DNA of 64,000 nt from Streptosporangium lutulentum (GTDB lineage: Bacteria; Actinomycetota; Actinomycetes; Streptosporangiales; Streptosporangiaceae). This document shows positions 1,989 through 37,602 of this stretch, one piece after another; the first letter of the stretch is position 1; each line of letters begins with the position of its first letter. The notes beneath the pieces were generated by a model. The model was not told where the DNA came from. It saw nothing but the letters and a program-made list of their open reading frames with translations, and searched no databases. The stretch spans positions 7,564,001-7,628,000 of the forward strand of contig NZ_JAUSQU010000001.1 of assembly GCF_030811455.1 (NCBI RefSeq), written 5' to 3'. The translations under genes and the position numbers were made by a program.

Positions 1989-2081
1989 GGGTGACGCCAC
2001 GGCAGGCCTCTGCCGCCCGTGTCGCGGGTGAGGGCCTCATCGCAACTCGAACTGCAACCATGACGCCCTTGAAGATCAAAA

Positions 2082-2112
2082 AGGCCCTCTCCCAAGTTTC
2101 GGGAGAGGGCCT
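2082..2112 (-). terminator. Terminator hairpin, left repeat copy
   Basis: A perfect 12-bp stem (AGGCCCTCTCCC / GGGAGAGGGCCT) has a 7-base loop and a run of T on the minus strand after the stem. It is identical to the terminator of the intact tRNA-Ser at 27798-27828. Confidence 0.85.
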
Positions 2113-2120
2113 CTGACCTG

Positions 2121-2176
2121 CGGAGGCTCGGGGATTTGAACCCCGGATGGGCGGTAAACCCAAACCGCATTAGCAG
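2121..2176 (-). pseudogene. 3' fragment of tRNA-Ser(GCT)
   Basis: Read on the minus strand, this matches tRNA-Ser(GCT) from the anticodon loop through the variable arm, the T arm (GGTTCAAATCC) and the 3' acceptor strand. The 5' acceptor, the D arm and half of the anticodon stem are absent and replaced by unrelated sequence. It is the hallmark remnant at the distal end of an element inserted into the tRNA. Confidence 0.9.
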
Positions 2177-2459
2177 CTCGGGGCGTGACCGTTCAGGACA
2201 GTCCCACGTGGACCAACGCCCCTCGGCGGGCCTCCTGGAACGAGCTGGTACGGCAGTGAACTGCAACCCAAACTGCAACCCTCTACGGTCTCTGACTGCC
2301 CTGGATCAAAGTCTGTGAAGTAGTGACGCAATGTGACCCGTGACAAGCGGGACGACGGTTTCCCTTCCCGCGACCCGACAGGCTACAGCCGAAATGACGG
2401 AAGGGGGCTTTGCCCGATCAAAGCCGGGCAAGCGATGCGCCTACGCTCTAGACAGGAGC
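2177..2459. other. Intergenic segment at the left end of the island
   Basis: No gene is visible. Short repeats such as CTGCAACC (near 2265-2280) and a GTGACxxGTGAC-like stretch near 2330-2345 recall arm-type integrase sites. They also resemble the GTGA-rich spacers elsewhere in the island. This is only a resemblance. Confidence 0.35.
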
Positions 2460-3014
2460 CTATGAAACGTGAAGCCCTTGGACGATCGCGTCGAGCGCAC
2501 CCTTTGCAGACTCGGACGTGGTGACCCTGAGCACCAACCCGTGATCTGCCACCCACATCATGTCTGTGCGGTCCTCGGAGACCACTGGATCGGTGGCCTT
2601 CCTAGGCTCTACGGGTTGCTGCATGACATTCAGCGCAAGAATGTCCAGAGCATCACTGATCTTCTGCTGTGGGCGGTAGACGGACACCTGGACCATCCGA
2701 CCGCCTTCGCTGTCTCGCCAGCGAAGCGCCTTCCCGTGCAGGTCCGCGGCCGTCGCGGGCACGGCTTTCGGCTGGCCGAGGCCATCAGGCAGGTAACGTA
2801 CTTCAACCCCATCGACCTTGGGAGCAGGAGTGCCCGCAACAGGGGTGCTAGCGGCGGTTTGAGCAGGCTGTGAGTCAACGGCACAGGCGGAGCCTGCCGC
2901 CGCCGCAGCGAGTACGACCGCGATCGCGAAGATCGCCTTGGCCCGGGCCACGCTCCGCTGAGGCGCTATCGAAATGGTTTCCTCGGCCAGTGCCCGGGGC
3001 TCAAACTGCGACAA
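2460..3014 (-). CDS. Putative secreted or lipid-anchored protein of unknown function
   Basis: I chose the TTG start at 3014 because GAGGAGG lies 6 bp upstream; the upstream ATG extension has poor codon use. The 184-aa product has a positively charged N-terminus and a hydrophobic Ala-rich segment ending in GSACA, so it is exported and possibly a lipoprotein, although GSAC is a weak lipobox. The mature part is Pro/Ala/Thr-rich at first. A compact domain follows (VEVRYLPDGLG, VSVYRPQQKISDALDILALN, DMMWVADHGLVLRVTTS). Its pattern recalls anti-sigma-linked or secreted sensor domains, but I do not recognise the family. Spacer copy A follows on the other side. Confidence 0.65.
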   Translation of the reverse strand: MSQFEPRALAEETISIAPQRSVARAKAIFAIAVVLAAAAAGSACAVDSQPAQTAASTPVAGTPAPKVDGVEVRYLPDGLGQPKAVPATAADLHGKALRWRDSEGGRMVQVSVYRPQQKISDALDILALNVMQQPVEPRKATDPVVSEDRTDMMWVADHGLVLRVTTSESAKGALDAIVQGLHVS

Positions 3015-33841: not shown

Positions 33842-35158
33842 TCAGACTGGCTGGGAACGAAGAAACTTTCCGAAATGTGGAACGGTGAAAGCGATCAGCC
33901 CACGCTCGGCGCTGTAGATCAGCCCCTTCTTGATGAGGCTGTCTCGGGCCGGGGAGAGGCTCGACGGTTTGCGGCCGAGGCCGTCGGCCACCTCGGAGGT
34001 GGCCACGGGCTCGTCACCGATGGAGGCCATGGCGTGCATGTAGTCGCGCTCGGCCGGGGTGGCCCGCTCGTAGCGACTGCCGAAGAAGCCGACCGCGAGC
34101 TCCTCCTCCGCCTCCGGCGCGGAGACCCGGATGTCGTCGGCGGTGATCGGACTGCGCAGTGCCAGGTCCCAGGCGACCTTGCCGTAGGCCTGGACGAAGT
34201 AGGGGTAGCCGTCGGCCGCCTCGTAGAGCGCGTCGAGGGCCTCCTGGGTGAATTCCACCCCCTCGCTCTCCGCCGGGGCGATGAGCGCCAGGTCCGCCGC
34301 CTCACGGTCGAGCCGGTCGATCCTGGCATAGCGGAACAGTCGCTCGGAGTAGCTCTTGCTGGCCGACAGCACGCTGGGCAGGTGCGGCAGGCCGGCACCG
34401 ACCACGATCAACGGGCCGCCGCTCTGGGAGAGCTCATGGCAGGCCGCGCAGAGCGCCGAGACGTCGGGGGCCTGCACGTCCTGCATCTCGTCGATGAACA
34501 GCGCGATGCCGACGCCCAGGTCGGTGGCCACCGCGGCGGCGTCGACGAACAACTCGGTGAGGTCGATCTCCAGATCTCCGGAGTCGGCACGGCCCCGCCC
34601 CGCGGGCACGTCGATCGCGGGAGACCAGTGTGAGGTGCCCTTGGCCGCGGACGGATCACGCATCGCGAACGCCTTGAGCACGCCGAGGAACTCCTCGATG
34701 CGCTCGGGCGCCCGATGGCGAGGGGCCAGCTCGCGGATCGCCATGTGAAGGGCCGCGGCCACCGGACGCCGGATCGACTGCTCGGGCCGGGCCTCGATCT
34801 TCCCGGTGCCCCACAGCCGCTGCATGGCCATCGATTTGAAGGTGTTGAGGAGCACGGTCTTGCCCACGCCTCGCAGGCCGGTGACGACCATGCTCCGCTC
34901 CGGGCGCCCTCGGGCCACCCTCTCCAGGACGATCTCGAACTGTTGTAACTCACGGTCGCGCCCAGCGAGCTCTGGGGGACGCTGCCCCGCACCGGGGGCG
35001 TAGGGATTGCGCACGGGGTCCACGCTCTCGGACTTTATGACGGGATATAGCGGCCAACGTAGATTTCCGTAGAAAGCGCTACGGCGTGTCGCGTCATCTT
35101 CGGCGGAAACCCGGGGACGGGGGGCGTGGGCCACCGGCGGAACCGCGAGCATCGCCAT
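33842..35158 (-). CDS. AAA-type ATP-binding protein (ORC/STAND-like)
   Basis: A 438-aa protein from ATG 35158, which has AGAGGGG 7 bp upstream. The N-terminus is proline-rich. Then come a Walker A (VVTGLRGVGKTVLLN), a Walker B (GIALFIDEMQDV), a sensor-like LIVVGAGLP and an arginine region (SERLFRYARIDRL). The C-terminal winged-helix-like part is AERDYMHAMASIGDEPVATSEVADGLGR..LIKKGLIYS. This architecture matches AAA_16/Cdc6-like ATPases of actinobacteria. The role is unknown, with possible ATP-dependent DNA-binding regulation. It stands alone. Confidence 0.85.
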   Translation of the reverse strand: MAMLAVPPVAHAPRPRVSAEDDATRRSAFYGNLRWPLYPVIKSESVDPVRNPYAPGAGQRPPELAGRDRELQQFEIVLERVARGRPERSMVVTGLRGVGKTVLLNTFKSMAMQRLWGTGKIEARPEQSIRRPVAAALHMAIRELAPRHRAPERIEEFLGVLKAFAMRDPSAAKGTSHWSPAIDVPAGRGRADSGDLEIDLTELFVDAAAVATDLGVGIALFIDEMQDVQAPDVSALCAACHELSQSGGPLIVVGAGLPHLPSVLSASKSYSERLFRYARIDRLDREAADLALIAPAESEGVEFTQEALDALYEAADGYPYFVQAYGKVAWDLALRSPITADDIRVSAPEAEEELAVGFFGSRYERATPAERDYMHAMASIGDEPVATSEVADGLGRKPSSLSPARDSLIKKGLIYSAERGLIAFTVPHFGKFLRSQPV

Positions 35159-35374
35159 GACACACCCCTCTACCTGGGCGGACACCGTCCGAACCCGCGT
35201 TCGATCCAACGCCTCCGACTGTAGCGCGGGTTCGAACACAGGAACGATGCTTTTCGAAGAAAGCCTCGATTAAAGAATGGGCACGGGCCGATCAACGCGC
35301 CTGAAATCCGGCCGCAAACCTCCCGAACGGGCGGCGAAGACAGCAACAGGAACGCCTACTAGGGGAGAAACGCC

Positions 35375-35800
35375 TCAGTCACGGACAGCCAGTCCCATCG
35401 AACGCGCCGTACCCGCGATGATCTTCTCGGCCTGGTCCAGGTCGGCGGTGTTGAGGTCGGGCATCTTGGTCCTGGCGACCTCCCGGAGCTGCGCGCGGGT
35501 TATCGTGCCGGCCACTTGGTGACCGGGGCGGGGGCTGCCTCCGTCCAGCCCGATGACCCGGCGGATCAGGGAGGCCGTGGTGGGCGTCTTGACCGCCAGT
35601 TCGAACGAACGATCCTCGAACACCGTGATGGCGACGGGCACGACGAACCCGCGCAGGTCCTGCGTGGCGGCGTTGTACTGCCGGCAGAACTCCATGAGGT
35701 TCAGGCCCAGCGGGCCGAGGTCCTTGCCGACGGTGGCCGGGCTCGCCTCACCGGCCCTGACCTGAAGCTTCGCGACACGGATGATCTTCTTTTTCGACAT
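35375..35800 (-). CDS. Ribosomal protein L11 paralogue
   Basis: A 141-aa L11-family protein. The N-terminal domain (KLQVRAGEASPATVGKDLGPLGLNLMEFCRQYNAAT) is joined to the rRNA-binding C-terminal domain (SFELAVKTPTTASLI..KMPDLNTADLDQAEKIIAGTARSMGL). It is not in a nusG-rplK-rplA context, so it is a second copy. In ordinary L11 the first loop reads A-x-P-A-P-P-V-G, and those prolines contact thiopeptide antibiotics; here it is SPATVG, so the proline pair is gone. It is divergent from a MerR regulator with a dyad operator between them. A conditional, possibly thiopeptide-insensitive L11 is my inference. Confidence 0.9.
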   Translation of the reverse strand: MSKKKIIRVAKLQVRAGEASPATVGKDLGPLGLNLMEFCRQYNAATQDLRGFVVPVAITVFEDRSFELAVKTPTTASLIRRVIGLDGGSPRPGHQVAGTITRAQLREVARTKMPDLNTADLDQAEKIIAGTARSMGLAVRD

Positions 35801-35814
35801 GCCCGCCACGCTAA

Positions 35815-35835
35815 AGTGTCCAGTTACTGGAGACT
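35815..35835. promoter_or_regulatory. MerR-type dyad operator
   Basis: The arms AGTGTCCAG and CTGGAGACT are 3 bp apart and match at 8 of 9 positions. The site lies 15 bp before the L11 paralogue start and 19 bp before merR. Short-spaced dyads of this kind are typical MerR sites. Confidence 0.7.
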
Positions 35836-35854
35836 CAACAGGAATAATCAGGTC

Positions 35855-36757
35855 ATGAACTACACGATCGGGCGGCTCGCCAAGCTCTCCGGGCTGCCGG
35901 TGAAGACGATCCGGTTCTACTCCGACATCGGGGTGCTCCCCGAGCGTGGCCGCACCGCGGCCGGATACCGCGTCTACGGCGACGAGGACCGGGTGCGACT
36001 GGAGCTCGTCCGGGCGCTGCGCGAGATCGGCGTCGACCTGGCGACCATCCGGTCGCTGGGCGACCGCGACCTGCACCAGGTGCTCTCCCTGCACCTGCGT
36101 ACGGTGGAGACGCAGATCAAGTCGCTGCAGCGGACCCGCGCGGTGCTGCGCGCCACGCTGGAGCGCGACGATCCCACCGACGACGACCTGCGCCGGCTCA
36201 ACGCCCTCGGGCGCCTCGGCACGGCGGAGCTGACCTCGCTGGTGAACGACTTCGTCGACGACGTCTCCGACGGAAGGCCCACGCTGGAGAAATGGCTCGG
36301 CGACCTGAGCGCGGCCATGGTGCCCGAGTTGCCCGACGAACCGAGGATCGAGCAGCTCGACGCCTGGCTGGAGCTGACCGAGCTGCTCGCCGACGACGAC
36401 TTCCGTACCTCCCTGCGCGATATGGGCCGCGAGTTCTGGGAGAACGCCGACGAGACCGATCTCGCCGATTGGAACGCGGTCAACGAGCTGGTCATGCGGG
36501 AGGCCCTGGCCGCGGTGGACGACGGCGTGCACCCGGAGTCGGAGGCCGCCGTCCCCATCGTGAGCCGGATCCTCACGCTCCTGGCCGAGTCGCAGGGCCG
36601 TACTCCCGAGGCGGTCGCGCGCGGCTACGCCGAGCACGATCCTCGCGCCACCCGCTACTGGGAGCTGATCGCCGTGATCAACGACATGCCCTGGCCCGTG
36701 GCGCCCACGATCGCGCACGGCTGGATCACCTCGGCGGCGAATTGTCACTTCGGGTAA
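35855..36757 (+). CDS. MerR-family transcriptional regulator
   Basis: A 300-aa protein. The MerR DNA-binding domain (YTIGRLAKLSGLPVKTIRFYSDIGVLPERGRTAAGYRVY) and the linking helix are followed by a large helical C-terminal effector region of about 190 residues (LEKWLGDLSAAMVPEL..DDFRTSLRDMGREFWENADETDLADW..ARGYAEHDPRATRYWELIAVIN). There are no metal-binding Cys clusters, so the ligand is probably organic. It faces the L11 paralogue across a dyad and likely controls it. The start ATG at 35855 has a weak AGGTC site. Confidence 0.9.
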   Translation: MNYTIGRLAKLSGLPVKTIRFYSDIGVLPERGRTAAGYRVYGDEDRVRLELVRALREIGVDLATIRSLGDRDLHQVLSLHLRTVETQIKSLQRTRAVLRATLERDDPTDDDLRRLNALGRLGTAELTSLVNDFVDDVSDGRPTLEKWLGDLSAAMVPELPDEPRIEQLDAWLELTELLADDDFRTSLRDMGREFWENADETDLADWNAVNELVMREALAAVDDGVHPESEAAVPIVSRILTLLAESQGRTPEAVARGYAEHDPRATRYWELIAVINDMPWPVAPTIAHGWITSAANCHFG

Positions 36758-36813
36758 TTGATCAAATACAATAGCGATTTGTCATGTTTGTCAGGTATGG
36801 GGGATGGCAACAG

Positions 36814-37602
36814 ATGAAAAAGTCTCAGCGCGTCATGCACCTGGGGACGACGCTCGTGGTGGCGGCCGGCTGCCTGTCAGGGACCGCGTGCGCCGCGTCC
36901 ACCACGACGCTCGCGCCGCCGTCCGCCTCGGCACTCACCTCGCCGTCCGTCTCGGCACCGGTCTCGCCGTCCGCACCTCCGGCCCCGGCCCCGTCGGCCG
37001 AGCCGACCACCGCGAGCCCCACCCCCACCGGACCGCCGAAGTTCTCCGCCGAGGTCTCCCGGGTCACCCGTAAGCAGCTCCCGTACTCCTGGCGGCCCGG
37101 ATGCCCGGTCCCCGTCGGGGACCTGCGGCTGATCACGATGAGCTACTGGGGCTTCGACGACAAGCCGCACACCGGCGAGATGGTCGTGAACAAGGACGCG
37201 ACCGACGCCGTCATCACGGTCTTCGGGCGCCTGTACGGCTGGCGGTGGCCGATCTACAAGATGCAGCTCGTCGACGCCTACAAGGCCAGCGACTTCGACT
37301 CGATCGACGCCGACAACACCTCGGCCTTCAACTGCCGCCCGGCGGAGGGGTCGAGCAGCTGGTCCGAGCACGCCTACGGCAGGGCCGTCGACCTCAACCC
37401 CCGGGAGAACCCCTACCGCTTCGCGAACGGCACGTTGTCGCACAAGAACGCCCGAAAGTTCGGCACCCGCCCGCTGGACGCGCCCGGTGTGATCAATCCG
37501 GGCGACCGGGTGGTCAAGGCCTTCGCGAAGGTCGGCTGGGGATGGGGAGGCGTCTGGGCGGGGGCCAAGGACTTCCAGCACTTCTCCGAAAGCGGCCGCT
37601 GA
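36814..37602 (+). CDS. Secreted M15-family metallopeptidase (D-Ala-D-Ala carboxypeptidase-like)
   Basis: A 262-aa protein from ATG 36814 (MKKSQRVM). The N-terminal signal sequence ends near a Cys (VVAAGCLSG or GTACA), so it may be a lipoprotein. A low-complexity Ser/Pro/Ala linker (about residues 30-75) leads to the peptidase domain. Zinc ligands are visible as H and D in SEHAYGRAVDLN and H in DFQHFS, with the usual GWGWGGVW before the last His. It acts in the envelope on peptidoglycan stem peptides (family knowledge). Confidence 0.88.
   Translation: MKKSQRVMHLGTTLVVAAGCLSGTACAASTTTLAPPSASALTSPSVSAPVSPSAPPAPAPSAEPTTASPTPTGPPKFSAEVSRVTRKQLPYSWRPGCPVPVGDLRLITMSYWGFDDKPHTGEMVVNKDATDAVITVFGRLYGWRWPIYKMQLVDAYKASDFDSIDADNTSAFNCRPAEGSSSWSEHAYGRAVDLNPRENPYRFANGTLSHKNARKFGTRPLDAPGVINPGDRVVKAFAKVGWGWGGVWAGAKDFQHFSESGR

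Follow-up and report, generated by a model that had tools for sequence, protein, structure and literature searches.

A possible inducible L11 exchange in Streptosporangium lutulentum: a second L11 gene facing a MerR regulator

Why does the genome of the soil actinobacterium Streptosporangium lutulentum encode, in addition to its ordinary ribosomal protein L11, a second L11 which stands alone and is divergent from a MerR regulator? The two genes lie in a window of 64,000 nucleotides (contig NZ_JAUSQU010000001.1, positions 7,564,001 to 7,628,000), whose own numbering is used below. The original prediction described the protein as an L11 without the prolines that contact thiopeptides, and the pair as a possible switch for resistance by target replacement or for ribosome specialisation. 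We give a probability of roughly 55% to the reading of the pair as a module for inducible target replacement. The most economical account of the locus appears, as far as the sequences go, to be resistance to thiopeptides through an inducible exchange of L11; it joins a spare L11 of the TclQ type with a sensor of the TipA type in a stand-alone arrangement.

The L11 paralogue and its promoter

The L11 (rplK) paralogue occupies positions 35375-35800 on the minus strand (141 amino acids, stop codon included in the interval). Both Pfam domains of L11, the N- and the C-terminal one, are present, and the protein reaches 163.1 bits against a cut-off of 141.85 in TIGR01632, the NCBI equivalog model for bacterial L11. 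The host genome of 10.6 Mb contains one further L11 gene (G000:C1:6652819) at its usual position, flanked by nusG and rplA, so that the second rplK which the original prediction presupposed does exist. The two proteins are 53% identical in the alignment. In the RNA-binding half, for which the Pfam match has an E-value of 6.2e-24, DLN and most of GTARSMG vary little or not at all.

The differences that would matter for thiopeptides are found in the loop (EASPATVGKDLG), where EASPA-TVGKDLG of the paralogue aligns with QATPAPPVGTALG of the main copy. The predicted loss of the contact prolines holds for the PP pair, which has lost one residue by deletion and has T for the other. It does not hold for the first proline (PA), which is retained, nor for P26, where the paralogue has K but the main L11 already has T; it is therefore PP which sets the two copies apart in the loop prolines. 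The thiazoles of thiostrepton are described as sitting on P22 and P26 of L11 (PMC8183687). The exchanges P22S, P23L and G25V are reported with resistance (PMC9769715), and P26S is mentioned for an isolate which escaped a micrococcin-containing treatment (PMC12285270).

The relatives which we compared fall into class A, the type found in the window, and class B, a different paralogue type introduced below. The PP of PAPPVG is absent, with a deletion of one residue, in 36/36 paralogues (27 of class A, leaving out L106, which is cut by a contig end, and nine of class B), and all 36 have K at the P26 position. PPVG is kept in each of 75 main L11 sequences, a set from which identical sequences, those shorter than 130 amino acids and those with a stop had been removed. 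The linker of the window's paralogue reads KTPTTASLI; class A has PTT in place of TPPA or PPA of the main copies, whereas class B retains TPP. Mean identity to the main proteins is similar in both halves for class A (0.563 N-terminal, 0.521 C-terminal), while class B has diverged further in the N-terminal half (0.407) than in the C-terminal half (0.529). A word of caution concerns PPVGT, with T at P26, which occurs in all 21 main proteins assigned to the family (e.g. L001, 1273-1704) and in 18 of the 54 others. This T is the same residue as in TclQ, so that a partial resistance to some thiopeptides may already exist in the family.

The start codons of the two divergent genes are only 54 bp apart. 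In this gap lies a MerR-type promoter on the minus strand (35808-35838), with the -35 element TTGAGT (35838-35833), a spacer of 19 bp and the -10 element TAGCGT (35813-35808). The dyad which had been noticed earlier is real: 7/8 pairs match in TxTCCAGT-A-ACTGGAxA (35817-35833, centre 35825), and the dyad overlaps the -35 element by one base, the last. This dyad is probably the MerR operator; since the 19-bp spacer across which it extends is part of the paralogue's own promoter, it is the paralogue which has the MerR-type promoter. MerR-regulated promoters are described as having spacers of typically 19-20 bp (PMC9909328), and precisely such a promoter, holding a dyad, is present here; the layout supports the predicted induction of the paralogue by MerR. 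From the distance of 7 nt between the -10 element and the ATG the paralogue mRNA is probably leaderless. On the plus strand a possible -10 element of the merR gene (AATAAT, 35843-35848) is located 6 nt upstream of its ATG, and GGAATAATC is found again in some relatives.

The pattern TTG[AC]NN, exactly 19 bp and TANNNT recurs in 37/37 regions upstream of paralogues (28 of class A, nine of class B), and at spacings of 15-18 or 20-22 bp it occurs in none of them. Markov samples gave an expectation of 0.23 of 28 for class A and 0.01 of 9 for class B. These numbers are a description rather than a strict test, since the pattern was chosen after viewing the sequences and the relatives are not independent of each other; the two classes are the only nearly independent samples. 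We also considered a regulon beyond the paralogue. This was rejected, as the host genome has no second site within three mismatches of the 31-mer promoter, although more diverged operators may exist.

The MerR regulator and its sensor domain

The regulator is encoded at 35855-36757 on the plus strand (300 amino acids, stop codon included). It consists of a helix-turn-helix (HTH) part (residues 1-70 approximately; Pfam MerR_1, E 5.9e-15), which together with the L11 domains bears out the proposed divergent pair, and of a sensor (about 107-300) with a putative TipAS/AlbA-like portion at about 197-300. A fold search with the whole protein gave DNA-binding parts, and the sensor was therefore modelled alone; the model appears to resemble the TipAS/AlbA fold.

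The link to TipA drawn by the original prediction is thus backed in part, by the predicted fold, by weak matches of some family members to the TipAS profile and by a class B relative whose divergent MerR carries a clear TipAS domain. The window's MerR itself (P0002), however, stays below the Pfam cut-off for TipAS (16.9 versus 23.8 bits). The 14-member MerR alignment has no conserved cysteine which could capture a thiopeptide covalently, and a search of PDB sequences with the sensor profile returned no TipAS chain among the matches listed. Profile comparison of the sensor with the three TipAS proteins of the host gave a probability of 4%, with thin alignments. These three are other MerR-like proteins with TipAS-domain matches (L113, L114, L115). 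Of 21 genomes searched, 17 contain distant relatives of the sensor domain, with 29-38% identity except for a single short match at 50%; their neighbours are mixed and give no lead to the ligand.

Distribution and relation to thiopeptide gene clusters

Among the best 80 of 218 loci of a contig scan, 15 show 69-84% identity to the paralogue. All of these are from Streptosporangiaceae, namely from the genera Nonomuraea, Sphaerisporangium, Streptosporangium, Sinosporangium, Thermocatellispora, Rhizohabitans and Bailinhaonella; the remaining 65 are from other groups and have at most 59% identity. Within the family, class A is present in 24 of 250 genomes. With duplicates removed there are 28 distinct paralogues, and a full-length divergent MerR accompanies 26 of these. 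At L006 (7699-7947; S. amethystogenes, with a paralogue identical to that of L086) the MerR is cut to about its HTH part, and at L008 (upstream of 8001) none was found. Both loci retain the MerR-type promoter layout, and their regulation may be lost. In another genome (L136, G248, about 1501-1716) only the C-terminal half of an N-truncated class A remnant is readable, which by its sequence looks like a loss in progress. Loop, promoter and divergent MerR are found together again in several genera, so that the arrangement is not due to chance, and dN/dS values (the ratio of nonsynonymous to synonymous substitution rates) range from 0.08 to 0.22 in ten pairs.

The pair is adjoined by genes for an AAA_16 ATPase (33842-35239, minus strand) and an M15 peptidase (36784-37602, plus strand). 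When the flanks of the window and of L003-L017 were compared by tblastn, seven loci had flanking genes in common with the window; genes of both flanks recur there, which suggests one old site. The other eight have only the pair in common with it (L011 and L012 share flanks with each other), so that the pair is the unit which is kept. A plasmid search gave no class A copy, all 78 records being below 60% identity. Among the PLSDB matches (e.g. H17-H27, H6) are 12 Clostridioides and other 'plasmid' records with L11 genes; these may be pieces of a chromosome or genuine additional copies.

Class B was found in seven more genomes of the family and in two genomes of one other family. Nine family genomes were re-searched for a second L11, which yielded the seven class B genes, one class A remnant and one split main copy; the two genomes outside the family came from a class-wide search of 394 genomes, in which G287 and G332, with two matches each, were left out. 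Between AG and GK the loop of class B is free of prolines (e.g. AGDAAVADLGKTLG). In a tree the two classes each form one group (100/99), both apart from the main proteins, with an arbitrary root and an unsettled bootstrap. Two class B loci (L132 and L135) have a divergent MerR which is 36-37% identical to that of the window. At a third (L139, genome G418 of another actinobacterial family) the L11 gene (1495-1917, minus strand) is divergent from a MerR gene (about 2065-2814, plus strand) whose product contains a clear TipAS domain (E 8.5e-27) and also matches the solved TipA and SkgA; its operator is unlike that of class A. The six other class B loci gave no MerR match in the about 3.4 kb of sequence covered.

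An association with thiopeptide gene clusters, which the original prediction had suggested checking, was not found. The standard thiopeptide pathway requires YcaO, and as the host genome has no YcaO match, it probably lacks such a pathway. YcaO is present in 19 of 24 class A carriers, a figure which has no baseline from non-carriers. Linkage was judged on shared contigs, on which the nearest YcaO is about 143 kb (G172) and the next about 237 kb (G121) away from the paralogue; in several carriers the paralogue lies near a contig end. Self-immunity of a producer, which we considered as well, is with these distances and a host without YcaO not a likely setting. PF14028, which covers lanthipeptide as well as thiopeptide enzymes, says little, being present in 145 of 250 family genomes and with two matches in the host (best E 1.2e-11). 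It is commoner in class A carriers (21/24 versus 124/226 others; Fisher P 0.002, without correction for kinship and not specific for thiopeptides). In four class B regions, the 19 of 54 listed open reading frames that were scanned contained no thiopeptide enzyme domain.

TsnR-type methyltransferases of 23S rRNA confer thiopeptide resistance at the level of the target, and they modify RNA, whereas the module described here concerns L11. Of the 250 family genomes, 16 have a TSNR_N match above the cut-off, and no carrier (24 of class A and seven of class B, 31 in all) is among them. Despite the zero overlap, mutual exclusion was rejected, as an overlap of 2.0 was expected (P 0.23, not significant). 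For the thiostrepton producer, rRNA methylation is described (PMC5960728).

Proposed mechanism and rival explanations

The closest known L11 system is that of TclQ and TclT from the thiocillin and micrococcin P1 clusters, which likewise provides extra L11, in the case of TclQ with an altered proline loop. Both are described as proposed replacements for L11 which give immunity to the thiopeptide, and a putative MerR gene, tclU, is mentioned for the micrococcin cluster (PMC12724294, PMC10704990). TclQ, however, is located inside a thiopeptide cluster (L116), unlike the paralogue with its host devoid of a YcaO match. The loop change is also a different one: TclQ from pBac115, to which the paralogue is 48% identical, retains PP and has T at 26, while the paralogue has lost PP and carries K. 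With TipA (TipAL/TipAS) the window's MerR has in common the HTH, a target promoter with a long spacer, a sensor of possibly similar fold and a weak profile match; it differs in the score below the TipAS cut-off and in the lack of a conserved cysteine. Its apparent target is a ribosomal protein gene, whereas TipA is described as acting on itself and as sequestering the drug (PMC7762955). The MerR-like AlbA is reported to bind and retain albicidin (PMC6078987), while the MerR studied here apparently switches a target gene.

The proposed module would work as follows. A MerR dimer would sit on the dyad within the 19-bp spacer, and its TipAS-like domain would bind a thiopeptide or a similar antibiotic of the ribosomal stalk. 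By the general MerR mechanism, the ligand-bound regulator would bend the DNA and turn on the presumably leaderless mRNA. The paralogue, which has kept its C-terminal RNA-binding motifs, could then replace ordinary L11 at the stalk base of the 50S subunit, and ribosomes without the PP of the loop would, going by published L11 resistance mutants, no longer be gripped by the drug. The antibiotic probably comes from another organism, since the lack of a YcaO match makes a standard thiopeptide pathway in the host itself improbable.

L11 has a role in the activation of RelA. The pair could thus serve ribosome specialisation without resistance, an altered stalk base shifting the behaviour of RelA or translation factors in a relC-like manner while MerR senses stress or an own metabolite. 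Both the changed loop and, in class A, the linker (PTT for PPA) are located in the part of L11 formed by its N-terminal half and hinge, and a host without YcaO suits this explanation as well. We nevertheless regard it as unlikely: the sensor appears to be similar to drug-binding domains, a clear TipAS MerR stands opposite one class B copy, and the lack of any proline of the PAPP segment in class B would fit an escape from a loop-binding drug better than a new function common to the paralogues. Somewhat less probable still is that the same switch answers to another inhibitor of the stalk base or of translation. TipAS-like domains are described as binding unrelated drugs (albicidin and pyrrolobenzodiazepines for AlbA), and the scattered sensor relatives beside mixed genes point in the same direction, but the residues changed in the paralogue are among those named in published accounts of thiopeptide contacts and resistance.

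A decoy or regulator acting off the ribosome would agree with a stand-alone gene under its own control; we consider this improbable in view of the well-matched RNA-binding domain with its nearly invariant motifs. The C-terminal half is also the one nearer to the main proteins in class B, though not in class A. The slimmest chance is left to a redundant or decaying duplicate without a special role: the patchy occurrence, the truncated remnant and the MerR lost or cut at two of 28 loci are what decay would produce, but the low dN/dS values and the loop change and promoter layout in every copy compared speak against it.

For the family and beyond, we tentatively propose, at slightly less than even odds, a scattered stand-alone system of Actinobacteria in non-producers. 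In it, a foreign thiopeptide would be sensed by a TipAS-like MerR, and the L11 of the ribosome would be exchanged for a spare copy out of the drug's reach; there would be two classes of L11 (A and B), and the MerR sensors would be of two kinds or more. Literature searches over open-licence papers of PubMed Central (PMC) listed no account of a module of this type. If this proposal is true, exchange of a ribosomal protein on demand would be a form of target replacement outside any antibiotic gene cluster, and the pair would be a marker of thiopeptide-like sensing in environmental actinobacteria. It would also offer a natural test of whether bacteria re-tool their ribosomes upon contact with a drug, and the L11 loops that occur in nature (PPVGP, PPVGT, TVGK and those of class B) could be used as a series to map the contacts needed by thiopeptides and by RelA.
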